From Pricia mediterranea (GTDB lineage: Bacteria; Bacteroidota; Bacteroidia; Flavobacteriales; Flavobacteriaceae): 64,000 nucleotides of DNA. Each line of letters opens with the position of its first letter. Within the stretch, counting starts at the first letter, position 1. The stretch lies in the NCBI RefSeq assembly GCF_032248455.1, contig NZ_JAVTTP010000001.1, forward strand, positions 310,001 to 374,000, given 5' to 3'. Under the pieces are notes generated by a model that saw nothing but the letters and a program-made list of their open reading frames with translations, searched no databases and had not been told where the DNA came from. Below are positions 32,607 to 48,003 of this stretch, piece after piece. The position numbers and the translations under genes were made by a program.

Positions 32607-33305
32607 TTATTTATCGACCCATTTCATTTGCCGTACGGAAGCGAGATGTCCCCGTACCGCTAGCGCGCCTATGTATCTATCATCAGGTGCAAACCCGAAC
32701 ATATACCATTCCGATTTTTCGGCAGCGTCCCAAGCAGTGCGTAAAAGCTCTGCACTTTCGACATCCAATGATACGGAAAATGAAGTTAGCGGAAGCGAGA
32801 GTCCCATGCCCTTGGCCTTTATAAAAGATTCCTTTCTGGTCCAGCAGCGATAAAATGCCGCGACCTTCGCTTTTTCCGGTAAGGCTTCCAAAACAAGAAT
32901 CTCATCGGAAGAAAAAAAATGCCGCGCAACCTCCATCACCTCGAAATCGTTTTTAATACTTTCGATATCGACCCCGATATCATTATTCCTGACAAAGGCA
33001 AGGACAATTCGATTTCCCGAATGTGAAATGTTGAATTTAATAGCGGTGTCAAAATTAAAATAGGGTTTTCCATATTCCCCTTCATCGAAAGTAATATGGG
33101 CCGGGACGCGATTCAGATAGCGGCCCGATAAAGTTCGAAGTAGTCCCCTGGCCAAGGTATAAACCCTCCTGTCCCTGACAAATTTGAAACTGTCCGCTTT
33201 TTGTATTTCCGCCGGGGAAAGCAGATTTTTATAGAAATCCATATCCGTAGAAAGCTCATCGACCTTCGTATGCCAGAGGTGGACCTCATGTGCGGGCAGT
33301 ATCAT
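32607..33305 (-). CDS. 4'-phosphopantetheinyl transferase (Sfp type)
   Basis: 232 residues. Converts apo to holo carrier proteins by attaching the CoA phosphopantetheine arm to serine. Sfp-type motifs: FNISHSGNRIVLAF (about 90-103), VGIDIES-like IGVDIESIKND (Mg-binding Asp/Glu, about 111-121) and FYRCWTRKESFIKAKGMGL (WxxKEA-like, about 150-168). It lies 105 bp downstream of the C-A-T-TE NRPS on the same strand, and presumably activates the three carrier domains of this cluster. The FNISHSGN and WTRKESF variants are normal for Bacteroidota. Confidence 0.93.
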   Translation of the reverse strand: MILPAHEVHLWHTKVDELSTDMDFYKNLLSPAEIQKADSFKFVRDRRVYTLARGLLRTLSGRYLNRVPAHITFDEGEYGKPYFNFDTAIKFNISHSGNRIVLAFVRNNDIGVDIESIKNDFEVMEVARHFFSSDEILVLEALPEKAKVAAFYRCWTRKESFIKAKGMGLSLPLTSFSVSLDVESAELLRTAWDAAEKSEWYMFGFAPDDRYIGALAVRGHLASVRQMKWVDK

Positions 33306-33410: not shown

Positions 33411-36400
33411 TTACGAAGTATCACTCAGGTTCTCGAAGTCTTCCATGCACGATTTTAGACTTTGGGCCGTACTTTTTACCGTAGGTGTCAGAAAGAGACT
33501 TCCATGATGTCCTTCCACAGGCACTACCTTGACCTTCGTGTTGCTAAGTTTCTCCCAAGAGGCGATTAGTTTGGTGTTGAATTCGACATCCTTTTTTTCG
33601 CTCAATAGTAATTGTATGCCGCTTTCTGCCTTCTTCCAGGTGTAATCGGCGTATATTTTTAGGTGATTATCGTGTAATCGCTGGATTGTCTTTTGGCTAC
33701 CGCTACTGGCTATGTACCTAATTTTACGGGTCAGCGGCTTAATTACCTTACTCTTTAACAATCTCCCGACCGTTCGTAACGGATTCTTCTTGAACCTTCG
33801 CAGGAATGCCAAGATCCTGATTTTGGTCCTAGAGGCCGAAAACATACTTAGATAGTCAGCCATGGTATCGGCAATGATAAGGTTGACGGATTCGGACTCG
33901 GCTTCAAGTTTTCTAAGGATCTCAATTCCAATCGCGGTGTTGAAGCAGTACGCAAGAAGATGATAGGGCCCGTGGGCTTGTACCTTCTTGATTTCCGCAA
34001 TAAAATCCACTGCCATTTCGGCGACACTGCGATGTAGGATGGGTTTACCCTCGTGGCGCGATGCCTGTACGGCGTACACCGGTCTGTCGGAAGAAAGGTT
34101 TTCGGCCAAGAGGTTGTAAAAAAAGAAATGACTCCCGCCCGAATGAAGACAAAAAAGAGGGGGTTTCGAGCCGGTGGCCCTGATGGGTACCACATGTTTA
34201 AATCCCTCGGTTATTTCTTCGGTATCAGGGTCGTCGCTTTCGGACATCAAGAAATGCGCCAGCTCGGCTATGGTCTGATATTCGAAAAATTGGTTGGGCG
34301 ACAAATCTATTTCAGCTGCCCGAGCTTTTGCGATTGCTTGAATGCTCAATATAGAATCCCCGCCGATCCTAAAAAAATTATCATGGATTCCGATGGGGGA
34401 CACATGTAGGACTTCCTCCCAAATTCCCACCAGTTTTTCTTCCACTGCATTCGTAGCAGCTGTGACCTCATCGGGCCTTGCCCCTCCTTTCGATTTTCCC
34501 AATTCGCGCAACGCCCTGACATCAACTTTTCCGTTCGGCAAGAGCGGGAGCCCGTTAATGGTAATTAATCGGGACGGCACCATATAATCCGGGATCCTCG
34601 ATTTCAGGCCACGTTTTACCCTATCCGCATCAAAGCTACCGGCCGGTACAATAAAGGCTATCACTTGCCAGGCAGTTGGCAGATCTGATTCTTGTACGAG
34701 AACTACCGCATTTTTAATGGAAGGGTCGTTCAACAAAACCCGTTCAACTTCCTCTAATTGAATACGATGCCCCCGAATCTTCACCTGCATATCGAGCCTT
34801 CCCAGAAATTCCACAGCCCCGTCTTTTCGATAGCGGGCCAGGTCGCCCGTACGGTATAATCGATGAATCTTATTGGTATTAAATCGATGTTGAACAAACG
34901 CGGCCTCCGTAAGTTCCGGTCTGTCGATATACCCTTCCGAAACCCCCGGACCCCCAATAAAGATTTCCCCAACCGCTCCGTAGGGCACTAAGTTCAAGCT
35001 TTCGTTCAAAAGGTAAATTTCCGCTTTGGCAACCGGTTTTCCAATAGGAACGCCCCTTGTTACATCCTCTCTCTCGATCTGGTGCGCCATACACCAAACG
35101 CAGGCTTCGGTCGGGCCGTATTCGTTGTACAGTGAGGTACGGGGGAGTATATCGAAATGAAGGTCCACCACAGCGGGGCCACAGGCCTCCCCCGCTACTA
35201 TGATCGTTTGCAGACTTTCTAATGTATCGGTCTCCGCATGTTCCAGGACCATTTTATATAAACTGGGCAGCATCAACGTATGGGTTACAGCATGTTCTCG
35301 GATCAATTTTGTGATTTTTAAAATATCCTGCTCGATACGGTTCTCGGTAATGACTAGATTGCCAGCGGTACAGAGGGTCCAGAAAATTCCTGCTTTAGAG
35401 CTGTCGAAAGAAATGGAGGACAACAGCAGAAAGACATCTGGATTTTGAGGATAAAAATCTAACCTGCCTTCCGTAGAATTAATAAGGCTTGCATGTGAAA
35501 CCGAAACCCCTTTAGGCTGCCCGGAACTACCGGAAGTATAGATTATATAGGCAAGGGCATCGGAGGATACCCGGGGTAATTTCGTCAATATTGGTCCGAC
35601 CGGTTTTTCAATGGAACCAAGAAAAATCAGGTCTTTGTCCGATTCCTTGAAAAGAGAGGCCAGGGCGTGCTGGGTCAGGATAATATTAACCCCCGCATCC
35701 TTTAAAACAAAATCGAGCCGCTCGGAAGGATAGTTGGGATCGATGGGCAGATACGCGCAGCCCGCTTTTAAGATACCCAACATGCCTATGATCATTTCAA
35801 TCGATCTTTCGGTACACAACGCTATACTCTCGTTACTTTTATTGGTCTTAGCGAGCAAGGCTAGAGCAACCAGTTCAGCTTTTTGGTTCAAGCTTGCGTA
35901 GGATATCGATTCCCCATCGAATGTTAGGGCCGTCTTATCGGGTTCGGTTTTGGCAACGTCTTCAATAATATGGTGTATAGCGGAATCGGAGGGGAAAGCA
36001 TTACGGATCGCATCCGGTTCTTTGAGAAAGACCGCCCTCTCCCATTCTGTAAGCATGTCGATATCCGCTATTCTTTGCAGGGGATCTTCTGTCAGTACCT
36101 CCAGCAACAAGGTAAGGTGTTTTTGAAACTGGATGATCGTGGATTCATGGAATAAATCACTAGCGTATTCGAACCCCGATGAAAGCCTTCCGTCTTCATT
36201 GGCTACATATAGGGTAAGGTCGAATTTGGACACTCCCGGGTTGAAAAACGAATGGGACATCTCGAGATCGCCACCGAACGAGGGGGCAATTCTGGCACTG
36301 TGATAAATGAACATCACCCGAAAAAACGGATTTACGCCTAAGGAACGCTCGGGCCGAAGAGCTTTGACCAAGGCCTCGAAGGGTACATCCTTGTTTGAGA

Positions 36401-37457
36401 AAGCCTCTAGCACTGTCTTTTTCACCTGCGCTACGAAATCGGTGAATCTTTTTTCAGGAGCTATGTCGGACCTTAATACGACTGTCTCATCGAAAAAACC
36501 GATAAGATTTTCCAAGACCCTATCGTTCCTGAGAGAAATAGGAGATCCGACCAGGATATCCTTTTGACCGCTGTACCTATGAAGCAAAACGTAGAAGACC
36601 GAAAGCAAGAACACATAAGGCGTGGTTTCCATCTCTTTCGACAAATCCAATACCCGTTTGGAAAGCGCCGGAGAAAATTTGGTCCGATAAGAGGTGCCCT
36701 TATACGAGGGATTTGCGGGCTGGGGGAAATCGGTCGGTAGGGCCAGCAGAGGAATCTTCCCCGACAATTTGGTTCGCCAGTAATCTATCTGGGAGGCATC
36801 CAATCCCCTATTCCTTTGCCAATAGGCGTAATCGGCAAACTGAAGGGCATCTTTTTTCCTATCATCAAATTCCCTATCGGTACCGAAGGCCATGTAATAC
36901 ATCGCCAATTCCTTCAAGAAGATATCCATGGACCATTTATCGAATATGATATGGTGCATGGTCAGCAAAAAAAAGTATTCCTCGTTATCCAATTTTATCA
37001 AAGTGCAACGTACGAGGGGAAATTCGTCCAAATGGAAAGCTTGACCTGCATCGGCCATTAGAATATCCGATTTTTGTTTATCCCGTTCATCCTGGGGAAG
37101 AGCGCTCAAATCGAACCGTTTCAGTTCAATCTCTGATTTTTCGTTAACGGACTGAACGGGACTGCCGTTTTCATAGGGGTAATAAGCGCTTAGGATTCGG
37201 TGCTTCTTAAAGACCTGTTGCAGGCTCTCGGCGAACGCGGTTTGGTTCAATGCACCTTTGAAAATAAGACCTTCCGCATAGTTGTACACCGGGTTGTCCG
37301 GAAGCAGGCGCTGCAAAAACCATAGCCTTTGCTGTCCGCTCGTTAGTGGAACGGGAGCGTCTTTGGGTACCTTGGGAACGGGCGTCCGAACCGGTGCCTT
37401 GTTTTCCCTTTTTTTCCATTGACTTAAAACAGAAGTGTTTTCAGTTTCTTTTTTCAA
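33411..37457 (-). CDS. Nonribosomal peptide synthetase, C-A-T-TE termination module
   Basis: 1,348 residues, TTG start at 37457. After a basic leader: condensation domain (about 36-470; LTSGQQRLWFLQR), adenylation domain (about 490-985; IIYTSGSSGQPKG at 638-650, NEYGPTEACVW at 778-788, A8 GHRIQLEEVE, A10 Lys977), carrier domain (about 1000-1070; Ser1035 in GGDSI), and thioesterase (about 1088-1340). Oddities: the condensation motif is HHIIFDK (168-174) rather than HHxxxDG, and the thioesterase nucleophile elbow is AYCFN with Cys1171 instead of GxSxG. The catalytic His is likely in EGHHGSLF. Hand alignment to GrsA gives pocket residues D-S-A-L-I-A-E-V-W-K, no confident substrate. It should be the last module, condensing and releasing the product. 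It shares a strand with hupE (16 bp upstream) and the PPTase gene. Confidence 0.93.
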   Translation of the reverse strand: MKKETENTSVLSQWKKRENKAPVRTPVPKVPKDAPVPLTSGQQRLWFLQRLLPDNPVYNYAEGLIFKGALNQTAFAESLQQVFKKHRILSAYYPYENGSPVQSVNEKSEIELKRFDLSALPQDERDKQKSDILMADAGQAFHLDEFPLVRCTLIKLDNEEYFFLLTMHHIIFDKWSMDIFLKELAMYYMAFGTDREFDDRKKDALQFADYAYWQRNRGLDASQIDYWRTKLSGKIPLLALPTDFPQPANPSYKGTSYRTKFSPALSKRVLDLSKEMETTPYVFLLSVFYVLLHRYSGQKDILVGSPISLRNDRVLENLIGFFDETVVLRSDIAPEKRFTDFVAQVKKTVLEAFSNKDVPFEALVKALRPERSLGVNPFFRVMFIYHSARIAPSFGGDLEMSHSFFNPGVSKFDLTLYVANEDGRLSSGFEYASDLFHESTIIQFQKHLTLLLEVLTEDPLQRIADIDMLTEWERAVFLKEPDAIRNAFPSDSAIHHIIEDVAKTEPDKTALTFDGESISYASLNQKAELVALALLAKTNKSNESIALCTERSIEMIIGMLGILKAGCAYLPIDPNYPSERLDFVLKDAGVNIILTQHALASLFKESDKDLIFLGSIEKPVGPILTKLPRVSSDALAYIIYTSGSSGQPKGVSVSHASLINSTEGRLDFYPQNPDVFLLLSSISFDSSKAGIFWTLCTAGNLVITENRIEQDILKITKLIREHAVTHTLMLPSLYKMVLEHAETDTLESLQTIIVAGEACGPAVVDLHFDILPRTSLYNEYGPTEACVWCMAHQIEREDVTRGVPIGKPVAKAEIYLLNESLNLVPYGAVGEIFIGGPGVSEGYIDRPELTEAAFVQHRFNTNKIHRLYRTGDLARYRKDGAVEFLGRLDMQVKIRGHRIQLEEVERVLLNDPSIKNAVVLVQESDLPTAWQVIAFIVPAGSFDADRVKRGLKSRIPDYMVPSRLITINGLPLLPNGKVDVRALRELGKSKGGARPDEVTAATNAVEEKLVGIWEEVLHVSPIGIHDNFFRIGGDSILSIQAIAKARAAEIDLSPNQFFEYQTIAELAHFLMSESDDPDTEEITEGFKHVVPIRATGSKPPLFCLHSGGSHFFFYNLLAENLSSDRPVYAVQASRHEGKPILHRSVAEMAVDFIAEIKKVQAHGPYHLLAYCFNTAIGIEILRKLEAESESVNLIIADTMADYLSMFSASRTKIRILAFLRRFKKNPLRTVGRLLKSKVIKPLTRKIRYIASSGSQKTIQRLHDNHLKIYADYTWKKAESGIQLLLSEKKDVEFNTKLIASWEKLSNTKVKVVPVEGHHGSLFLTPTVKSTAQSLKSCMEDFENLSDTS

Positions 37458-37473
37458 AAGTCGTATTACTTTT

Positions 37474-38736
37474 TTACACCAACCCTAAGAATCGGGCGAT
37501 AGGGAATAGTAGTTTTCCGTTAATGTACTCGTCCAATGGCATGTCGATATCGAAGACGCGCTCAATGAACCAGTACAATGAGATTATGATAAGTAGTATC
37601 GAAAGCCATACCATGAATTTCGGATAGCGTTTCGATTTTCGAATGAGATACAGTACCGGAAATATCAACATGATGATGACTATCTGTCCCAGTTCTACCC
37701 CGATATTAAAACCTAATAAAGATAAGGAAAGATTTTCACCCTTAAATCCCAGTTCCGAAAGTACGGTGGCAAAACCAAATCCGTGGAACAGACCGAAAAC
37801 AAACGCTATCACCCATTCCCTAGATATGAAAATGGGTTTGATGTTATGGTAGGCGGCAAGACCGATGGAAAAGGCAATGATCGATTCCACCCATCTTGAG
37901 GGTAAGTTCACGATGTTCAAAGAGGCTAGGCTCAAGGTTATGGAATGGGCGATGGTAAAAAAGGTTACGATTTTTATGATATACCAAAATGCGGGCTTAA
38001 ATTTCTGTACCGCCACCCACTTCCAACCAGGAGAAACCGATGTTATGGCCTTAAGCTTATCGGATGCCGAGGTTATTTTTCTCCGCCGGACTACCGAAGG
38101 AAGAATCAGGGCAACCAAAAATAAAATATGGTCCAGCCCGATCCAAATGTGCCAGGCTCCCTGCTCGACCATGGCCACAAATCCCTTCCAAACCGAGGTA
38201 TCGGTTAGATCCAACGTCTTTGTGCTTTGTTTTGGGGAGAACTCAAGGGCTATAATTTTTTCGTTATTGATGAGTCCTGCCTTCCAGTTATATTCCATGC
38301 CCAACCCGTTCGAATGCAGTGGATTTTGATCGAAGAATACGGAATAGGTGACCTCCAACCGGTCGGGTATTTTTTCGGTATTGTCGAGCTCAAAGTGAAT
38401 GGCGACGAACGACCCGAAATCGATGTATAAAGTACTGATCTCTCCGGTAAATATTATTTTATGCTTTCCATAGACGGAGGTAAACCCACTATGCTCAAGG
38501 AGGTATTCCTGTATCCTATCCCGATATACCGCGACCTCCCCCGCTGAGGGATGTTTCCCGAGCTCAAGGCCAAGATACCTGTCCAGATCCGTGGCCATAA
38601 TCTCGAAACGCCCCTCGATTCCAGCGGTTTCATAGACCCTGAGATAAATGAGACTTCGATCTGGTCGATGTGCGAATACGGTAATCGGAATAAGGAACAA
38701 AAGGATAAAAATGAGTTGACCCGTAATTTTTTTCAT
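37474..38736 (-). CDS. HupE/UreJ family metal permease-like protein
   Basis: 420 residues. Residues 1-22 are a signal peptide (ITVFA-H). Next comes an extracytoplasmic domain (about 23-195), then a seven-helix membrane domain with HIWIGLDHILFL (about 205-216), FTIAHSITLSL and GLFHGFGFATVL, the HupE/UreJ_2 hallmark with His/Asp-rich helices. Members of this group are linked to Ni, Co, Cu or Zn handling. It ends 16 bp before the NRPS start and should be co-transcribed with it, which ties metal transport to the peptide product. Confidence 0.85.
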   Translation of the reverse strand: MKKITGQLIFILLFLIPITVFAHRPDRSLIYLRVYETAGIEGRFEIMATDLDRYLGLELGKHPSAGEVAVYRDRIQEYLLEHSGFTSVYGKHKIIFTGEISTLYIDFGSFVAIHFELDNTEKIPDRLEVTYSVFFDQNPLHSNGLGMEYNWKAGLINNEKIIALEFSPKQSTKTLDLTDTSVWKGFVAMVEQGAWHIWIGLDHILFLVALILPSVVRRRKITSASDKLKAITSVSPGWKWVAVQKFKPAFWYIIKIVTFFTIAHSITLSLASLNIVNLPSRWVESIIAFSIGLAAYHNIKPIFISREWVIAFVFGLFHGFGFATVLSELGFKGENLSLSLLGFNIGVELGQIVIIMLIFPVLYLIRKSKRYPKFMVWLSILLIIISLYWFIERVFDIDMPLDEYINGKLLFPIARFLGLV

Positions 38737-39128: not shown

Positions 39129-40700
39129 ATGATCTATAATCTAGCTCAAATGATCGAGCGAACGGCCGATCTTTTTCCGGAAAAGGAGGCTTTTACCTGT
39201 GCGGGTAATGCCATCACCTACGGAGACCTAAATCTAAAAGCGAACCAATTGGCTTTTTGTCTCAGGGAAAACGGACTGCAAAAGGGCGATCGCGTAGGCA
39301 TCTATATGAACCGTTGTCTAGATACGGCCGTAGCCGTTTATGGAGTACTTAAATCGGGCGGGGCGTTTGTTGCCATTGACCCTTTTTTACCGCTGGAAAG
39401 AACCCTTATCATAATGAACGATTGCGACATCGCGCAACTGGTTACCACACCCTCGCAATCGAAAAAAATTCGGGGAATATCAAAAGAGGTGCATCCCCTT
39501 ACCTCCATATTGGGGGTTTCGGACGAACTTGAGGTAAAGACGGTTTCATGGGAAGCTATATTTTCAAAGTCCGCTACGGATTTCGCCTCCCGGCGGATCT
39601 TGGAAGAGGACCTGGCATCGATTCTCTACACTTCAGGCTCTACCGGAACGCCGAAAGGAATCATGCATTCGCACCACAATATTTTGACCTTGGCTCGGTT
39701 GGAGGCCGAGCTTCATGGTTCGGATGACCGTGATCGAATCGGAAATTTTGCCCCATTGCACTTCGACCAATCGCTATTTGGTTATTTTTCAGGACCTTTA
39801 GTAGGAGCGACTACGGTTATTTTTCCAGATGCGTACGTGAAACTACCGGCAAGCCTTTCGGCACTGGTAGCAAAAGAAAAAATTACCATCTGGTTTTCTG
39901 TACCCTTGATACTGGTACAGGTTTTACTACATGGTGCAATAGAAAATCATGATTTTAGCGCTCTCCGTTGGATTAGGTTCGGGGGCGAAATATTTCCCGT
40001 AAAGTATTTGAGGGCGCTGATGCAGCAATGGCCGCATGCCAAGTACATCAATTCCTATGGACCCTCCGAACTTTTCAGGTGTACCTATTATATAATCGAA
40101 GAACCGCCCAAGACCGATGATCCCATCCCTTTGGGAACGGTCTGGGGCAATACGGAATATAAAATTTTGGACGAAAACGATGAGGAAGTAGAAAAGGGAG
40201 AGTCCGGTGAGCTTGTGGTCCGTACGGCCACACTTATGATGGGCTACTGGAACGATAGGATGCGAACCGAAAACTCACTCTTTAAGGTTGAAACCGTACC
40301 GGGCCATGATCACATCTATTATAGGACCGGGGATACCGTTCTAGAAAATAACAAGGACGAACTCATGTTTTTGGGTAGAAACGACCGACAGATAAAACTC
40401 CGGGGTTATCGCATAGAGCTCGATGAAATTGAAACCGTACTCCTGAAAAACAATGTCGTAAAAGAAACAGTGGTAGTGACGATTCTGAACGATGAGGCCG
40501 AAGAGACCGGAATCACGGCCGTGGTGCGACTTGAAAACGCCACCGTTGGACGCCCCGAAGATCTGATGCGCTTTTGCAAAGCCCGGCTCCCCCCCTATTC
40601 CGTACCGCAAAAAATCGTAATCCTAAACGAGTTTCCGAGAACTGGCACCGGAAAAACCGATCGTAACCAAATCATTACCCTACTTAAAGCCTCTTTTTGA
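39129..40700 (+). CDS. Stand-alone amino acid adenylation enzyme
   Basis: 523 residues, one ANL-superfamily adenylation domain with no fused partner. A3 ILYTSGSTGTPKG (about 166-178), A4 HFDQSLF, A5 NSYGPSELF, A7 YRTGDT, A8 LRGYRIELDEIE and A10 TGTGKTDR with the catalytic Lys are all intact. It activates an amino or aryl acid as the adenylate. It overlaps the carrier-protein gene by 4 bp (ATGA), so the natural acceptor is the 84-residue carrier downstream, and this pair acts as the loading module. The A5 motif has Ser in place of Thr (GPSE). The substrate is not predictable by eye. Confidence 0.92.
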   Translation: MIYNLAQMIERTADLFPEKEAFTCAGNAITYGDLNLKANQLAFCLRENGLQKGDRVGIYMNRCLDTAVAVYGVLKSGGAFVAIDPFLPLERTLIIMNDCDIAQLVTTPSQSKKIRGISKEVHPLTSILGVSDELEVKTVSWEAIFSKSATDFASRRILEEDLASILYTSGSTGTPKGIMHSHHNILTLARLEAELHGSDDRDRIGNFAPLHFDQSLFGYFSGPLVGATTVIFPDAYVKLPASLSALVAKEKITIWFSVPLILVQVLLHGAIENHDFSALRWIRFGGEIFPVKYLRALMQQWPHAKYINSYGPSELFRCTYYIIEEPPKTDDPIPLGTVWGNTEYKILDENDEEVEKGESGELVVRTATLMMGYWNDRMRTENSLFKVETVPGHDHIYYRTGDTVLENNKDELMFLGRNDRQIKLRGYRIELDEIETVLLKNNVVKETVVVTILNDEAEETGITAVVRLENATVGRPEDLMRFCKARLPPYSVPQKIVILNEFPRTGTGKTDRNQIITLLKASF

Positions 40701-40951
40701 TGAATGAAAAAATTATATCCTATATCAAAACCGAAATATCCATGAGTCCGCTGACCGATATCGAATTTGATGAAGATCTGTTAGGAAATGGTATTGTGGA
40801 TTCCTTGGGTATGGTCAAACTCACTGTATTTCTTGAGCGGGAATTCAAAATAAAAATTGCCCCGGAAGATATGACAGTCGAAAATTTTAATACGATCCAA
40901 AGTATAAGCCACTATCTGTCGGAGAAACTGGATCAAGCAAAAAACAAATGA
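40697..40951 (+). CDS. Acyl/peptidyl carrier protein
   Basis: 84 residues, acidic, four-helix carrier fold. The phosphopantetheine attachment is in LLGNGIVDSLGMVKL (Ser near residue 36). It overlaps both neighbours by 4 bp: the adenylation enzyme before it and the C-A-T NRPS after it, which starts in its stop. It should be loaded by the stand-alone enzyme and donate to the condensation domain of the next gene. Confidence 0.92.
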   Translation: MMNEKIISYIKTEISMSPLTDIEFDEDLLGNGIVDSLGMVKLTVFLEREFKIKIAPEDMTVENFNTIQSISHYLSEKLDQAKNK

Positions 40952-43900
40952 AACGAAAGCTAACAACCGGTCAACTGTCGCTATGGGCGGGTCAAAAAAT
41001 TCACCCGGATGCTCCTTTGTACAACACGGCCTGTTCGTACGATATAAGGGGGAAGATCGATCTCATTAAATTCAAAAAAGCTTTACAGACCCTTTTAAAC
41101 AGTACCGATGCTTTCCGCATCCGGTTTTCGGAAGAAGAAGGCATTCCGTATCAATACGTTAGGGAGACAGTCGATTTCGACTTGCCCCTCATCGATTTTT
41201 CTCCGAACCCTGACACTGAAACTATTTCGAAATGGTTGTTGCAACGTAGCCAGCTGCCCTTGGTGTTATCTGATCGGGTGTTTGACAGCGCCCTACTTAA
41301 AATTGATGAAAATAGATACGTCTGGTATCTTAATATGCACCACTTGGTCACCGACGGCGTTTCAAGAAAAATCGTGTTCAAGAGAATGTCCAGTCTTTAT
41401 GCCGCTCTTTTAAATGAAACGACAGTGACACCGGGAGCGGATATTCCGTCTTTTTTAGAGTACGTCGAAGCCGAACAGGAACGAACAAATCCCTTTGGTC
41501 CAACATCCGGAGCCAATGCCATCAACGGTTCCAACTCGAAAGAGATGCCCGCTTTTTACGGGGTCAAGTCCGAGTACCGAACGACCGAGGCCACCCGCAT
41601 TCCTATTCGCCTGGGTTCAGAACGCTCGGTGCAATTAAAGGCGCTTCTTAGGCATCCGGACCTTCGGGGCTTTACCGAGCAACAAACCTTGTTTACCATA
41701 CTATCCGGTCTTCTTTTTGTTTTCATGTACCGGGTAAGTAACCAAAGAAGACTCGTTCTGGGAGCGCCCCTGCACAATCGCGTATCCAGAAAATTTCGCG
41801 AGACTGTGGGGTATTTCATTGAAGTCTATCCCTTGCGTACCGAGGTGAGAGAAGATGATACCTTTCGAACCCTCCTTAGCCGGGTTAGACGCGATAACAA
41901 CGAGAGCTTAAAAAATGCCTTACAACCTACGATAGAACAAGGTGAAGAAAAGAATTTCAACGCGGTCCTGAATTTCATTCACACCAGTTTCCCTGATTTT
42001 AACGGTTTTGAAACTATTTCACAATGGATCTATACGGGGCATATCGATAGCAAGCATCAAATACGATGTCATGTGATGGATTATGACCCCGATTCGGAAA
42101 TCCGTCTATTTCTCGATCTTAATCACGGTACTTTCGATGAGGAACTGATTCAAAGGGTGCCGCACCATTTCCTCAGGATACTCGACGCCTTGTTAAGGAA
42201 TTTAGACACTACGATCGGAAAACCGGCTTTACCGATTCCCGAAGAACGCCAATTTCTTTTACATAAGAACAGCGCCTTTCTTGAAACTCTTCCCAATATC
42301 GTAACCAGCTTCGAAAATATCGCGGTCAAGCATCCGAACGCGGTAGCCTTGCAATCCAGCAAAGAGGCTTTCACCTACGCCGACCTGAATAAAAAATCCA
42401 ATCAGCTGGCCCATTATCTACGAAAAAAAGGCGTTAATGAAGATGATAAGGTTGCCCTTTATTTCCAAAGGGGTTCTGAATATATCATCAGTGTTCTCGG
42501 GGTCTTAAAAACCGGGGGCGCATTTGTTCCCATCGCGACGGATCAAGCTTTGGATCGTATTGCCTATATACTTTCAGATTCCGGATGTTCCTTGGTGCTG
42601 ACGGAAAAAAGTTTGCGGCAAAAACTTGGTTCAGTCGGTATTCCCGTCCTAGCGTTATCCGAAGAAAAACACAGGCTGTCAAAGGAAGCAACCTCAAGTT
42701 TAGGGATGGCGGTGAATCTTGAAAGCCTTGCCTACATCCTTTATACATCGGGAAGTACAGGCCGCCCGAAAGGGGTTTTAATAACCCATGCGGCGATTTC
42801 CAATTATTTGAATTGGGCCGGAAATCAATATCGAATCGATAAAAAATCGGTATTCCCGTTGTTCACTTCCATAGGTTTTGACCTGACCTTGACCTCTACC
42901 TTCCTGCCGTTGATGAATGGCGGGCGGATTATCGTTTATGAAGAAAATAATACCGGGCCGGATATGGCTTTTTTACAAGTGATCGATGATAATTTGGTGA
43001 ATGTCATTAAACTGACTCCGTCCCATTTGGCCTTGTTACAAAAGCGTAATTTAAGCGCATCGCATGTAGAAACGATGATTGTCGGAGGCGAGGACTTTAA
43101 GGTGCTACTTGCAAAATCGATAGCGTCCAACTTTCCGAAGGATTTAAAAATCTATAACGAATATGGTCCGACCGAGGCGACGGTAGGCTGTATCGTCGGT
43201 GAGTTCGATATCGAGAAACATAATGACACGTCCGTACCTATTGGAAAACCAATCGCCAATATGCAGGCGTTTGTTTTGGATAAGCATTTGAACTTGGTAC
43301 CAAAAGGGGTTATCGGCGAACTTTATCTGAGCGGAACAGGACTTGCGAAAGGCTACCTTAATGCCGACGAAATGACAGCGACGAAATTCGTGGACCATCC
43401 TTTTACCGAGGATGGGAAAATGTACCATACCGGAGATTTGGCCCGCATAAATGCTACTGGGGATTTTGAATATCTGGGCCGAATTGACGATCAGGTCAAA
43501 CTTCGGGGCTACCGTATCGAACTATCCGATATTGAGGCTAACCTCACCGCGCATCCTGCAATTGATAATTGTGCCGTGGTGTTGGTGGAAGACAAGAAAC
43601 GAATACAGGAAAACGAGGTGGTCAATTGCATCCAATGTGGCCTACCATCCAATTATCCCAACATAGACTTTAACGAACAGGGCATCTGCCAGCTTTGCAC
43701 CGCCTTCTTGAACTATGAAGAAAAGGTAAAGCGCTACTTTAAAAACGATGATGAACTTGTGCGGATCTTGAGCTCGAAACGTGATGAAAACCCCAAGTAC
43801 GACTGTATCTCCCTTTTGAGCGGAGGCAAGGATAGCACCTACGTGCTGGCCCGCTTGGTAAATATGGGACTGAACGTTTTGGCCTTTACCATGGACAATG

Positions 43901-45078
43901 GTTACATTTCAGATCAGGCCAAGGCCAATGTCGACCGTATCGTAACAAAATTGGGCGTGGATCACGTGTACGGCGCGACACCGCATATGGACGAAATATT
44001 TGTTGACAGCCTGCACCGGCACCACAATGTCTGCAACGGTTGTTTTAAGACCATTTATACGCTGAGCACCCAGCTCGCTTTAGAAAAAGGGATTCCGTTT
44101 ATCGTGACCGGACTTTCACGGGGCCAGTTCTTCGAGACCCGGTTGACCGAGGAGCTTTTTTGGGACGATGCTTTGGATACCGTAAAAATAGACGACACTA
44201 TTTTAGAGGCCCGAAAACTATATCATCGCGAATCGGATGCCGTTAAAAGGCTGTTGGATGTTTCCGTTTTTGAAGATGATGCTGTTTTTGAAAAAGTACA
44301 ATTCGTTGATTTTTACCGATATAGCGACGTGAGTCTGGAAGAATTGTTGGCCTACCTAAAGGATAAAATAGGATGGGTGCGACCGACGGACACCGGACGC
44401 TCGACCAATTGCCTGATCAATCAGGTCGGCATCTATGTACATAAAAAGGAAGAGGGGTACAGCAATTACGCTTTTCCATATAGTTGGGACGTTCGCCTGG
44501 GCCACAAATCCCGCGATGAAAGCCTGGAAGAAATCAACGAGTCCATAGACGAGCCCGAGGTCAAAAGAATCATGGACGAAATCGGATATGAAAGCTTGGA
44601 TACCGAATATCCCCAGTCCGAACGGCTGGTCGCTTATTTTACCGGAAACCGGGATGCCTCCGTCAAAGATTTGAAGAAGTTCCTGTCCGAAAGACTCCCA
44701 TATTACATGATACCCACGATATTCAAGCCTTTGGACACCATGCCGCTGACCAAAAATGGAAAAGTGGACAAAAACTCCTTGAAAAAACTCAATAGCGCGC
44801 AGCTGGCCTTGGAAGCCCCCTACTCCGCGCCTACAAACGAAATCGAAGAACTGTTGGAACGTATCTGGAAGGAGGTGCTTCAGCTTCAGAAAGTGGGTAT
44901 TTACGATGATTTCATTGCATTGGGCGGGCATTCTTTGGCCGCTATACGGGTCACGGCACGGATCAACGAGGAAGTCGAAACGGAATTTCCGTTGAACAAA
45001 ATTTTTGAGCATCCGACCATTGCCGAATATGCGAACTATATCGAGGAGACCTTGACCGCATTGTTGGAAAATAGCTAA
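40948..45078 (+). CDS. NRPS C-A-T with a PP-loop ATP-pyrophosphatase domain inserted in the adenylation domain
   Basis: 1,376 residues in one frame. Condensation domain 1-430 (intact HHLVTDG, 131-137). Adenylation N-terminal part about 455-885: A3 ILYTSGSTGRPKG (597-609), A5 NEYGPTEA (737-744), A8 LRGYRIELSDIE (852-863). Insert about 888-1220: CIQC (894-897) and CQLC (914-917) cysteine pairs, PP-loop SGGKDS (958-963), CNGC (1029-1032). The adenylation domain then resumes (LVAYFTGN, A9 LPYYMIP, A10 Lys1272). Carrier domain about 1295-1370 with Ser1329 (GGHSL). The insert resembles N-acetyl-sugar amidotransferases (WbpG-like). Hand-read pocket D-L-T-K-I-G-E-V-G-K is nearly the textbook Asn code DLTKLGEVGK. 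It should add Asn and modify it or its bond in cis. Confidence 0.93.
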   Translation: MKRKLTTGQLSLWAGQKIHPDAPLYNTACSYDIRGKIDLIKFKKALQTLLNSTDAFRIRFSEEEGIPYQYVRETVDFDLPLIDFSPNPDTETISKWLLQRSQLPLVLSDRVFDSALLKIDENRYVWYLNMHHLVTDGVSRKIVFKRMSSLYAALLNETTVTPGADIPSFLEYVEAEQERTNPFGPTSGANAINGSNSKEMPAFYGVKSEYRTTEATRIPIRLGSERSVQLKALLRHPDLRGFTEQQTLFTILSGLLFVFMYRVSNQRRLVLGAPLHNRVSRKFRETVGYFIEVYPLRTEVREDDTFRTLLSRVRRDNNESLKNALQPTIEQGEEKNFNAVLNFIHTSFPDFNGFETISQWIYTGHIDSKHQIRCHVMDYDPDSEIRLFLDLNHGTFDEELIQRVPHHFLRILDALLRNLDTTIGKPALPIPEERQFLLHKNSAFLETLPNIVTSFENIAVKHPNAVALQSSKEAFTYADLNKKSNQLAHYLRKKGVNEDDKVALYFQRGSEYIISVLGVLKTGGAFVPIATDQALDRIAYILSDSGCSLVLTEKSLRQKLGSVGIPVLALSEEKHRLSKEATSSLGMAVNLESLAYILYTSGSTGRPKGVLITHAAISNYLNWAGNQYRIDKKSVFPLFTSIGFDLTLTSTFLPLMNGGRIIVYEENNTGPDMAFLQVIDDNLVNVIKLTPSHLALLQKRNLSASHVETMIVGGEDFKVLLAKSIASNFPKDLKIYNEYGPTEATVGCIVGEFDIEKHNDTSVPIGKPIANMQAFVLDKHLNLVPKGVIGELYLSGTGLAKGYLNADEMTATKFVDHPFTEDGKMYHTGDLARINATGDFEYLGRIDDQVKLRGYRIELSDIEANLTAHPAIDNCAVVLVEDKKRIQENEVVNCIQCGLPSNYPNIDFNEQGICQLCTAFLNYEEKVKRYFKNDDELVRILSSKRDENPKYDCISLLSGGKDSTYVLARLVNMGLNVLAFTMDNGYISDQAKANVDRIVTKLGVDHVYGATPHMDEIFVDSLHRHHNVCNGCFKTIYTLSTQLALEKGIPFIVTGLSRGQFFETRLTEELFWDDALDTVKIDDTILEARKLYHRESDAVKRLLDVSVFEDDAVFEKVQFVDFYRYSDVSLEELLAYLKDKIGWVRPTDTGRSTNCLINQVGIYVHKKEEGYSNYAFPYSWDVRLGHKSRDESLEEINESIDEPEVKRIMDEIGYESLDTEYPQSERLVAYFTGNRDASVKDLKKFLSERLPYYMIPTIFKPLDTMPLTKNGKVDKNSLKKLNSAQLALEAPYSAPTNEIEELLERIWKEVLQLQKVGIYDDFIALGGHSLAAIRVTARINEEVETEFPLNKIFEHPTIAEYANYIEETLTALLENS
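43609..44613 (+). other. Embedded PP-loop (adenine nucleotide alpha-hydrolase-like) domain
   Basis: This is the segment coding residues about 888-1222 of the NRPS, between adenylation motifs A8 and A9. It starts with a four-cysteine zinc-ribbon-like motif (C894, C897, C914, C917), as in WbpG-type N-acetyl-sugar amidotransferases, then SGGKDSTYVLARL, FTMDNGY, CNGCFKTIY, VTGLSRGQFFETRL and AFPYSWDVRLGHKSRDE. All parts of an active ATP-pyrophosphatase appear present. Expected chemistry is adenylation of a C=O oxygen with loss of PPi, followed by attack of N or S. Confidence 0.88.
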
Positions 45079-45771: not shown

Positions 45772-48003
45772 ATGAAGAAATATATACTCACTCTATTTAC
45801 TATTATCGCATTCGGTGCTCTTCATGCCCACGAACTCAGCGGCACCGTAACCTCGGAAGACGCCAAGGCCCTTGAAGGGGTCGGGGTCTATAACAAGTCC
45901 ACCGGCGCATACACCTATACCAACGTTTCGGGCTATTTCGAGCTTGACGATATTTCCGTCGGCGATATCGTTCGATTCTACAGCCTTGGATATCTGACCC
46001 AACAGGTGACGGTTACCGAAAATCAACTGGACGGCACCGTTAATATCACCATGATCGAATCGGCGGTATCGCTCGATCAGGTCGTTCTGGTCTCCAAAGT
46101 GAACGCGATGAGCAATTTCGTCAACGTCGATATCAAGACCAACCCCGTGAAATCATCGCAGGAAATCCTGCGTAAGGTACCGGGACTCATCATCGGCCAA
46201 CATGCCGGCGGCGGAAAAGCGGAGCAGATTTTTTTGCGCGGCTTCGATATCGACCATGGCACCGATGTTGCCATCGATGTCGATGGCATGCCCGTAAACA
46301 TGGTTTCGCATGCCCACGGTCAAGGGTATTCGGATATGCATTTTATCATTCCCGAGACCATCGATAATATCGACTTCGGAAAGGGACCCTATTATGCCTA
46401 TAAGGGAAACTTCAATACCGCTGGCTATATCGACCTCAAACTTCGGAAACAAATCGATAAAAATACCGTCTCCTTGGAAGCGGGCCAGTTCAATACCCTT
46501 CGTACGATGGGGATGTTCAAGGTGGCGGAAAGCGATTTTAGCAATGCCTATGTGGCTTCCGAGCTCGTGCTGACCGACGGTCCCTTCGAATCTTCGCAAA
46601 ATTTTAACCGCATCAATCTGATGGGACGTTATAATTATAGCAATCGCGTAGACCAGGACCTAACGCTTACCCTGTCGCACTTTCAGAGCAAATGGGATGC
46701 ATCGGGACAGATTCCCCAGCGGGCCATCGACCAGGGATTGATAGGCAGGTTCGGGGCCATCGACGATACCGAGGGTGGGAAGACGAGCCGATCGAACCTT
46801 TTGATCAATCATACCAACCAGCTCGATGAGCATTCAAGCGTACGGTCAAAAGCCTACATTTCAAAATACGATTTCGAGCTATTCTCGAACTTTACCTTCT
46901 TCTTGGAAGATCCGGTAAATGGCGACCAGATACGCCAATACGAAGATCGTACGATCATCGGCGCGGAGACCGCCTATGCACATTCGATCCATGTGGGCGA
47001 CCATGACTCCCAATTGAAATATGAGGCAGGCATCGGGTTTCGCTACGACGATGTCAACGACGTTCAGCTCTCCCGTACCGCCGACCGTCAGATGTTGTTG
47101 GAACGATTGGCCTACGGGAATGTCGACGAGGTAAACGGTTATGGATTTTTTGACCTCACCTATAAGAGAAACAAATGGACTATCAATCCCGGATTGCGTT
47201 TGGATTATTTCAAATTTGACTATGTCAACCTATTAACGGAGACCTATGATTCCAATAGTCAGGACAAACTGTTTTTAGGCCCTAAGCTGAACGTAATCTA
47301 TGCTCCGAGTCCCTCTGTGCAGCTATTCGCCAAATCGGGCATCGGATTCCACTCCAACGACACGAGAGTCGTCATCGCAGATACCGGGGAAGATATTTTG
47401 CCGCTGGCCTTCGGCGCGGACCTGGGCACGATCCTGAAGCCCATCGACAAATTGGTCGTTAATGCCGCCTTGTGGACCCTGTTTTTGCAGCAGGAATTCG
47501 TATATGTCGGGGATGCCGGCATCGTCGAACCCAGCGGGAAAACACGTAGGTACGGGGTTGACCTTGGCTTGCGCTATCAATTGACCGATGGGCTGTACGC
47601 CAACGGCGACATCAACTATACCCATGCCCGAAGTACGGAAGAGCCCGATGGGGAAAACTATATCCCTTTAGCCCCAGAACTCACTTCTTCAGCGGGACTG
47701 TCGTTTAGGGATATTCATAAATTTTCAGGTGGTATCAGCTATCGTTATGTCAAAGATCGGCCAGCCAACGAAGATAATTCAATTGTCGCGGAAGGCTATT
47801 TCGTGACCGACCTGAACCTCAACTACTCACACAAAAACTGGACGTTGGGCATCATCATCGAGAATCTCTTCGACACCGAATGGAACGAGACCCAGTTCGC
47901 CACGGAAAGCCGACTGTTCAATGAACCACAATCTGTCGAGGAAATCCATTTTACCCCCGGTATCCCTTTTTATCTGAGGGGGAAAATTTCGGTAACATTT
48001 TGA
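45772..48003 (+). CDS. TonB-dependent outer-membrane receptor
   Basis: 743 residues. Signal peptide 1-19 (ends GALHA), a carboxypeptidase-regulatory-like domain (about 20-105; SGTVTSEDAKALEGVGVY), a plug (about 110-230; AHGQGYSDMHFIIPE, the His-containing loop typical of one metal-receptor subgroup), and a 22-strand barrel ending in terminal Phe (ISVTF). It would import a metal complex with TonB energy. No SusD-like partner follows, so it is not a polysaccharide-utilisation pair. A clear terminator follows at 48026. Placed right after the NRPS operon, it is the natural candidate receptor for the peptide product or the metal itself. Confidence 0.9.
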   Translation: MKKYILTLFTIIAFGALHAHELSGTVTSEDAKALEGVGVYNKSTGAYTYTNVSGYFELDDISVGDIVRFYSLGYLTQQVTVTENQLDGTVNITMIESAVSLDQVVLVSKVNAMSNFVNVDIKTNPVKSSQEILRKVPGLIIGQHAGGGKAEQIFLRGFDIDHGTDVAIDVDGMPVNMVSHAHGQGYSDMHFIIPETIDNIDFGKGPYYAYKGNFNTAGYIDLKLRKQIDKNTVSLEAGQFNTLRTMGMFKVAESDFSNAYVASELVLTDGPFESSQNFNRINLMGRYNYSNRVDQDLTLTLSHFQSKWDASGQIPQRAIDQGLIGRFGAIDDTEGGKTSRSNLLINHTNQLDEHSSVRSKAYISKYDFELFSNFTFFLEDPVNGDQIRQYEDRTIIGAETAYAHSIHVGDHDSQLKYEAGIGFRYDDVNDVQLSRTADRQMLLERLAYGNVDEVNGYGFFDLTYKRNKWTINPGLRLDYFKFDYVNLLTETYDSNSQDKLFLGPKLNVIYAPSPSVQLFAKSGIGFHSNDTRVVIADTGEDILPLAFGADLGTILKPIDKLVVNAALWTLFLQQEFVYVGDAGIVEPSGKTRRYGVDLGLRYQLTDGLYANGDINYTHARSTEEPDGENYIPLAPELTSSAGLSFRDIHKFSGGISYRYVKDRPANEDNSIVAEGYFVTDLNLNYSHKNWTLGIIIENLFDTEWNETQFATESRLFNEPQSVEEIHFTPGIPFYLRGKISVTF

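Follow-up and report, generated by a model that had tools for sequence, protein, structure and literature searches.

The 64,000-nt stretch of Pricia mediterranea analyzed here (the window; contig NZ_JAVTTP010000001.1, positions 310,001 to 374,000) encodes a nonribosomal peptide synthetase (NRPS) in which a complete PP-loop domain lies inside an adenylation (A) domain. We conclude that this inserted domain is real, conserved and functional-looking. By analogy with the AMDH domains of AlbIV and CysH, it probably dehydrates carrier-bound asparagine (Asn) in cis to the nitrile β-cyanoalanine, a judgement that concerns the reaction and leaves aside the question of a metallophore.

An asparagine module interrupted by a PP-loop domain

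The protein comprises condensation (C), A and thiolation (T) domains, with the following features.

40948..45078, + strand: NRPS module C-A[PP-loop]-T, a single open frame of 1376 aa with A-domain code DLTKIGEVGK (Asn)
42310..43359, + strand: AMP-binding core of the interrupted A domain (Pfam), residues 455-804
43609..44613, + strand: PP-loop (AANH) insert, residues 888-1222 (335 aa), a predicted AMDH-type asparagine amide dehydratase
43627..43698, + strand: tetracysteine motif, CIQC (894-897) and CQLC (914-917)
43819..43836, + strand: PP-loop SGGKDS (958-963), invariant in 30 of 30 sequences
44032..44043, + strand: CNGC (1029-1032), predicted to provide ligands one and two of a CxxC...C iron-sulfur site
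44401..44412, + strand: STNC (1152-1155), with C1155 as the third cysteine of the predicted iron-sulfur site
44620..44763, + strand: C-terminal subdomain of the A domain after the insert (Pfam AMP-binding_C, 1225-1272; A10 NGKVDK, 1270-1275)
44851..45042, + strand: thiolation (PP-binding) domain (Pfam 1302-1365; GGHSLAA at 1326-1332)

Besides Condensation and the AMP-binding, AMP-binding_C and PP-binding domains listed, Pfam identified QueC at residues 953-1026 of the protein. The insert is preceded by VVLVEDKK (877-884) and followed by RLVAYF (1226-1231), and the motifs flanking it, GRIDDQVKLRG (844-854) and NGKVDK, which we take to be A8 and A10, are intact, as in an A8-A9-type interruption and in agreement with the site proposed in an initial annotation of the sequence. 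TioS (5wmm) is interrupted at the same site, between A8 and A9, by a methyltransferase that modifies a carrier-bound residue (PMC8949500), although the inserted enzyme is unrelated. In a structural model of the A domain with its insert (pLDDT 81.1, pTM 0.54) the placement of the insert was not fixed, and the 50 Foldseek matches listed were A domains or A-containing proteins.

Conservation was assessed in 30 distinct full-length sequences, the window protein and 29 others (the sequence of L066, identical to that of L003, was dropped). All 30 share cysteines 894, 897, 914, 917, 1029, 1032 and 1155 and the complete SGGKDS motif without change, and thus no orthologue in the alignment has lost its PP-loop residues. 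The insert is more conserved than its host A domain: of its 335 columns 137 are invariant, whereas the A core has 67 invariant columns out of 436 and the C domain 12 out of 440.

Among 397 genomes of Flavobacteriaceae, 40 matched the insert. It lies within one open frame of 1373-1426 aa (68-100% identity) in 28 of these, P. mediterranea included, while 11 of the 12 other matching genomes have frames of ~300-420 aa that match only weakly (E 1e-5 to 1e-18). In one genome (G209, C1:3426575-3426733), just 53 residues match, at 47% identity to the end of the insert and with two stops, perhaps the remnant of a lost module. The insert profile matched 61 of 395 genomes in a sample of the phylum, strongly only in P. 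mediterranea itself and in a member of another family (G587; 547 bits, 1347-aa frame), and when 295 genomes from the class were searched at E 1e-30, P. mediterranea alone matched. Relatives of the window protein were also found in Zobellia barbeyronii, Wocania arenilitoris and an uncultured Flavobacteriaceae bacterium by a genome-contig scan whose patterns, taken from the window protein, detect close relatives only. The 14 matches among 72,556 plasmid records include Pseudohalocynthiibacter aestuariivivens and Roseovarius pelagicus (53% identity) and Streptomyces sp. NBC_01216 (38%); the remaining 11 are below 30% identity, or at 33-35% over just one third of the query. A scan of viral contigs that used the insert profile left all 53 pattern matches unconfirmed.

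One explanation for such an architecture, an assembly error or gene-fusion artefact, is ruled out by its recurrence in one frame across 28 of 397 family genomes, in another family and on two Rhodobacterales plasmids, together with the residues invariant in 30 of 30 sequences. Thus, the single-frame C-A-T protein with a PP-loop domain described in the initial annotation stands, and the motif positions given there for CIQC, CQLC, SGGKDS and CNGC, as well as the coordinates of the domain, were exact; the invariant C1155 was missing from its list of motifs.

On the Roseovarius plasmid (L105) the protein is a C-A[PP-loop]-T-C-A-T-TE (TE, thioesterase) of 2682 aa. Its NRPS-neighbour proteins have accessions identical to those on the Pseudohalocynthiibacter plasmid (L107), WP_165198429 to WP_165198437, and TniB/TniQ-type transposition genes lie downstream of the Roseovarius NRPS. 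Because the accessions are identical in two genera and transposition genes are present, we infer recent horizontal transfer of the locus. Next to the Roseovarius NRPS (L105:6780-10957), a stand-alone A protein is accompanied by a carrier protein and by an acyl-CoA dehydrogenase. The models closest to this dehydrogenase, PigA and RedW (matched below cut-off), represent prolyl-carrier dehydrogenases from prodigiosin-type pathways, and the set is a possible pyrrole-forming unit.

Kinship with AMDH domains and the predicted reaction

The code DLTKIGEVGK of the interrupted A domain is found in the window, in G587 and in 24 of 29 readings from other loci, with the other 5 differing by one residue; only the last part, VGEVG, was read for Roseovarius. 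Codes were counted without gaps in what we take to be GrsA numbering, the last residue (K) being assumed. This code upholds the Asn-type A domain of the initial annotation and also fits β-cyanoalanine (Cya-3), which occurs only in albicidin (PMC12283262).

The albicidin A domain, AlbIV, for which the identical code is reported, contains a 342-aa insertion of the AANH superfamily (PMC12283262). The same domain was named AMDH in the cystobactamid enzyme CysH, printed with GenBank accession KP836244.2, where it is 69% identical to its AlbIV counterpart (PMC7966384), and both proteins are reviewed in PMC8949500. In vitro, carrier-bound Asn loses 18 Da on CysH to give β-cyanoalanine, but not without the AMDH domain, and Asp was not accepted (PMC7966384). 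The window module shares the PP-loop/AANH domain of similar size (335 aa), with its SGGKDS (SGGKD in the published motif), inside an Asn-activating A domain that adjoins a T domain. Therefore, the earlier view that no insert of this kind had been described was wrong. The interrupted architecture is already known, and what the Flavobacteriaceae add is the lineage, the cis setting and a metal-uptake context. In the two antibiotic pathways the interrupted A-T module stands alone and works in trans (with a shuttle protein in cystobactamid), whereas the window protein is a C-A-T module. Every BLAST homologue of AMDH is reported to lie in an A domain predicted to select Asn, many of them in unknown clusters (PMC7966384); this unnamed set could well include the Flavobacteriaceae proteins. 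Neither AlbIV nor CysH was among the matches in our PDB, plasmid and viral searches. Among the open-licence PMC papers listed by our searches, none was seen to treat this Flavobacteriaceae locus, and passages from PMC13185837, PMC12914433 and PMC11278768 contain nothing on an AMDH-like domain.

The same kind of domain could instead act as an aminomutase, isomerizing carrier-bound Asn to isoasparagine (isoAsn) so that the peptide would continue through the side chain. PF02668 TauD, which we take to be the SyrP family (CysJ type), had no match in any of 29 module-bearing genomes (one of them 86% complete); among 14 controls E. coli alone matched. Isomerization has been credited to the CysH domain (PMC7966384, PMC12283262, PMC8949500), which makes isoAsn linkers in vivo, less so without CysJ, a SyrP-like hydroxylase described as steering AMDH towards isomerization; deletion of cysJ gave more nitrile product and an isoAsn:Asn ratio six- to eightfold lower (PMC7966384). 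For albicidin, with its identical A code, no isoAsn form is reported (PMC7966384). With the hydroxylase family lacking and albicidin as precedent, we consider isomerization improbable here.

A match to NCBIfam TIGR03573 (WbuX, sugar amidotransferase) over residues 15-333 of a 353-residue query stretch (7.4e-37) rules out a chance resemblance and confirms the WbpG-like PP-loop domain seen initially, although the score (127.6 bits) is below the family cut-off of 203.2. Like the N-acetyl sugar amidotransferases WbpG, WbuX and LpNASAT (8wex), the insert has an N-terminal tetracysteine motif, which in the solved 8wex structure binds zinc, and SGGXDS. An AlphaFold model of the insert (pLDDT 78.9, pTM 0.79) had 8wex as its top Foldseek match (6.7e-11, TM-score 0.53), consistent with a common overall fold, followed among others by TtuA, YcfA, NcsA and LarE. 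Because the list also holds asparagine and NAD synthetases, it shows kinship of the PP-loop fold only.

This resemblance could mean that the insert is itself an amidotransferase, adding ammonia to the activated amide to form an amidine; the match over nearly the whole domain and the closeness of 8wex speak for it. However, the score is below cut-off, and in a maximum-likelihood tree of 47 rows (rooted for drawing only) the inserts are separate from the sugar-type enzymes, with weak support for the deepest split (78/57). The tree took 37 of 69 stand-alone PP-loop relatives, described below: all 9 with the CxxC...C cysteine trio and a hand-chosen 28 of the 60 without. In it, nine NRPS inserts (7 of the 30 from Flavobacteriaceae, Roseovarius and G587) group with a Streptomyces PP-loop/C protein (96/92). 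Moreover, none of the 35 NRPS loci contains HisF (34 once the duplicate L066 is set aside, some of them cut short by a contig end), and HisH occurs in only two, the plasmids L105 and L107, ~12 kb upstream of the NRPS gene and beside polysaccharide genes rather than near the module. In view of the missing partners, we regard amidine formation as very improbable.

In the Streptomyces protein (L106:14932-17112) the PP-loop domain is joined to a condensation domain, with no A domain around it; its neighbours are an A-T protein without interruption and asnB. This protein departs from the published claim that places all AMDH homologues in A domains. A second Streptomyces protein (L108:11740-12888), trio-bearing and near acyl carrier protein and ketosynthase genes, joins the insert group (100/99), but on a branch of 2.68; from its neighbours it is possible that it modifies a carrier-bound substrate.

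The cysteine trio and the choice between reactions

The trio C1029, C1032 and C1155 (CxxC...C), together with the PP-loop, is the arrangement of CtaC, the closthioamide thioamide synthetase, whose three-cysteine site is given as C154, C157 and C284. From the PP-loop Asp to the first trio cysteine there are 67 residues in the insert and 77 in CtaC, as described, and from the second to the third 123 and 127, supporting the likeness to CtaC suggested initially. A CxxC-C rule is stated for [4Fe-4S] LarE, and profile alignment sets CNGC on the cysteine pair of [4Fe-4S] LarE 8cnz (E 5.2e-6). TtuA and NcsA, like this LarE, combine a PP-loop with a three-cysteine iron-sulfur site; all three are distant and move sulfur to tRNA or a nicotinic-acid nucleotide. 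The trio looks new for an AMDH-type insert. The CysH protein was dark brown, and its authors looked for a CxxCxxxC motif and did not find it (PMC7966384); the predicted three-cysteine iron-sulfur site could explain this colour, which the discoverers left open.

Unlike the insert, 60 of the 69 stand-alone relatives lack the trio (69 proteins in 59 loci, leaving out part of the phylum-sample places, mostly weaker ones). HisF or HisH lies within 6 kb of 53 of these 60, compared with 2 of the 9 trio-bearing relatives (Fisher p 9e-5). The p-value should be read as indicative, given non-independent relatives, loci truncated by contig ends and a trio call that used a window around the aligned columns. 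Because 2 of the 9 adjoin HisF and HisH, the reaction cannot be read from the trio by itself. Two trio-bearing stand-alone genes (L112 and L115) are in loci without HisF or HisH, and their neighbours resemble by eye what we take to be carbamoyltransferases of the NodU/TobZ kind. PP-loop proteins of ~600-680 aa with a WbuX-like part and without the trio were seen in L119, L122, L123, L124, L134 and L143, with two asnB genes downstream in L119.

If the insert were a CtaC-like thioamide synthetase, it would replace the amide oxygen of carrier-bound Asn by sulfur through a [4Fe-4S] cluster, creating a soft metal ligand that would suit a metallophore. The trio and its spacing, the alignment to LarE and the Foldseek neighbours TtuA, YcfA, NcsA and LarE fit this reaction. 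Nevertheless, in albicidin the same A code and the same design of insert go with a nitrile, the trio also occurs in the two sugar-type enzymes beside HisF and HisH, and the Foldseek list is not sulfur-specific. CtaC itself, likened here by description, also acts on a carrier-bound amide, but it stands alone, puts sulfur into backbone amides and has no A-domain context. A Pfam scan of 17 window proteins found no sulfur carrier, although the closthioamide cluster as described likewise lacks a sulfur-mobilizing enzyme. Since the trio is unspecific and the albicidin code points to a nitrile, thiolation inferred from the trio alone was dropped, and we rate thioamide formation as improbable too, a slighter prospect than isomerization and a better one than amidine formation.

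We conclude that dehydration to the nitrile is the most likely reaction because the Asn code is the albicidin cyanoalanine code, TauD has no match, and HisF and a nearby HisH are absent. In this scheme, the A domain would activate L-Asn and load the adjacent T domain; the PP-loop domain would bind ATP and adenylate the side-chain carboxamide oxygen of Asn-S-T; and departure of AMP would dehydrate the amide to yield β-cyanoalanyl-S-T. Several points weigh against dehydration. AMDH membership was set by the published description (code, size, position and motif) and not by alignment with AlbIV or CysH, whose trans-acting A-T setting differs from the module here. Sulfur-inserting PP-loop enzymes (TtuA, LarE and CtaC) are where the trio is best known, and on that ground a thioamide would be favoured. 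Even in the absence of CysJ, CysH forms some isoAsn (PMC7966384), and the TauD search covers one oxygenase family and does not exclude other oxygenases. Action on the carrier-bound Asn amide, as the initial annotation proposed, is thus likely from the code and the CysH analogy. Of the products it named, amidine and thioamide are weaker rivals than the nitrile, and amidation of Asp to Asn fits badly because the code is that of Asn and CysH refuses Asp.

Gene neighbourhood and a possible metallophore

Unlike AlbIV and CysH, the window module sits in a locus with a TonB receptor and a HupE/UreJ protein, in the following order.

32607..33305, - strand: 4'-phosphopantetheinyl transferase
33411..37457, - strand: second NRPS, C-A-T-TE; its code DSAMIAEVWK differs in one residue from DSALIAEVWK, a His code
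37474..38736, - strand: HupE/UreJ_2 family membrane protein (metal permease relatives)
39129..40700, + strand: stand-alone adenylation protein, 523 aa
45200..45667, + strand: histidine-rich protein, 155 aa, no Pfam or NCBIfam match
45772..48003, + strand: TonB-dependent outer membrane receptor

In a hand count over 29 other distinct loci, the TonB receptor was kept in all 29, the HupE/UreJ protein in 28 (the miss being L041, an 11.4-kb locus stopping at a contig end) and the histidine-rich protein in 27. The stand-alone A protein was kept in 22 loci, with codes that vary between them; for the phosphopantetheinyl transferase the count was 15, several loci not being long enough to include it. 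Genes like the second NRPS are divergently placed in all other loci but L041, several as two or more frames. Their code was DSAMIAEVWK in 17 of 24 readings from other loci, with 7 differing by one residue, and DSACIAEVWK in Roseovarius; DSALIAEVWK is one of the His codes given in PMC12283262. HupE/UreJ also adjoins the module on the Roseovarius and Pseudohalocynthiibacter plasmids, and none was seen by eye among the nearby frames in G587. The TonB receptor had no match among solved structures at 1e-5. This syntenic setting, with a His-type C-A-T-TE, HupE/UreJ, a histidine-rich protein and a TonB receptor, looks new.

Metal uptake is suggested by the neighbours only, namely the HupE/UreJ permease, the histidine-rich protein and the TonB receptor, and from these genes we put the chance that the product is a metallophore at about even. 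The neighbouring NRPS, a His-type C-A-T-TE, would receive the β-cyanoalanyl unit; the resulting small peptide would be exported and taken up again through the TonB receptor. A nitrile in such a metallophore might coordinate softly or cyclize further. A broader proposal joins two ideas: that AMDH domains are iron-sulfur PP-loop enzymes in which C1029, C1032 and C1155 would hold a [4Fe-4S] cluster active in amide dehydration (or a thioamide intermediate), and that the Flavobacteriaceae domain would build a copper, nickel or zinc metallophore from cyanoalanine or thioAsn plus His, with the TonB receptor and the HupE/UreJ permease as its uptake route. This combination is tentative and, taken whole, rather unlikely to hold.

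The locus links a rare assembly-line reaction of two topoisomerase-inhibiting antibiotics to a conserved gene set resembling metal uptake. The 30 natural sequences with their invariant residues are available for mutagenesis, and the iron-sulfur prediction offers a concrete test for the whole AMDH kind.

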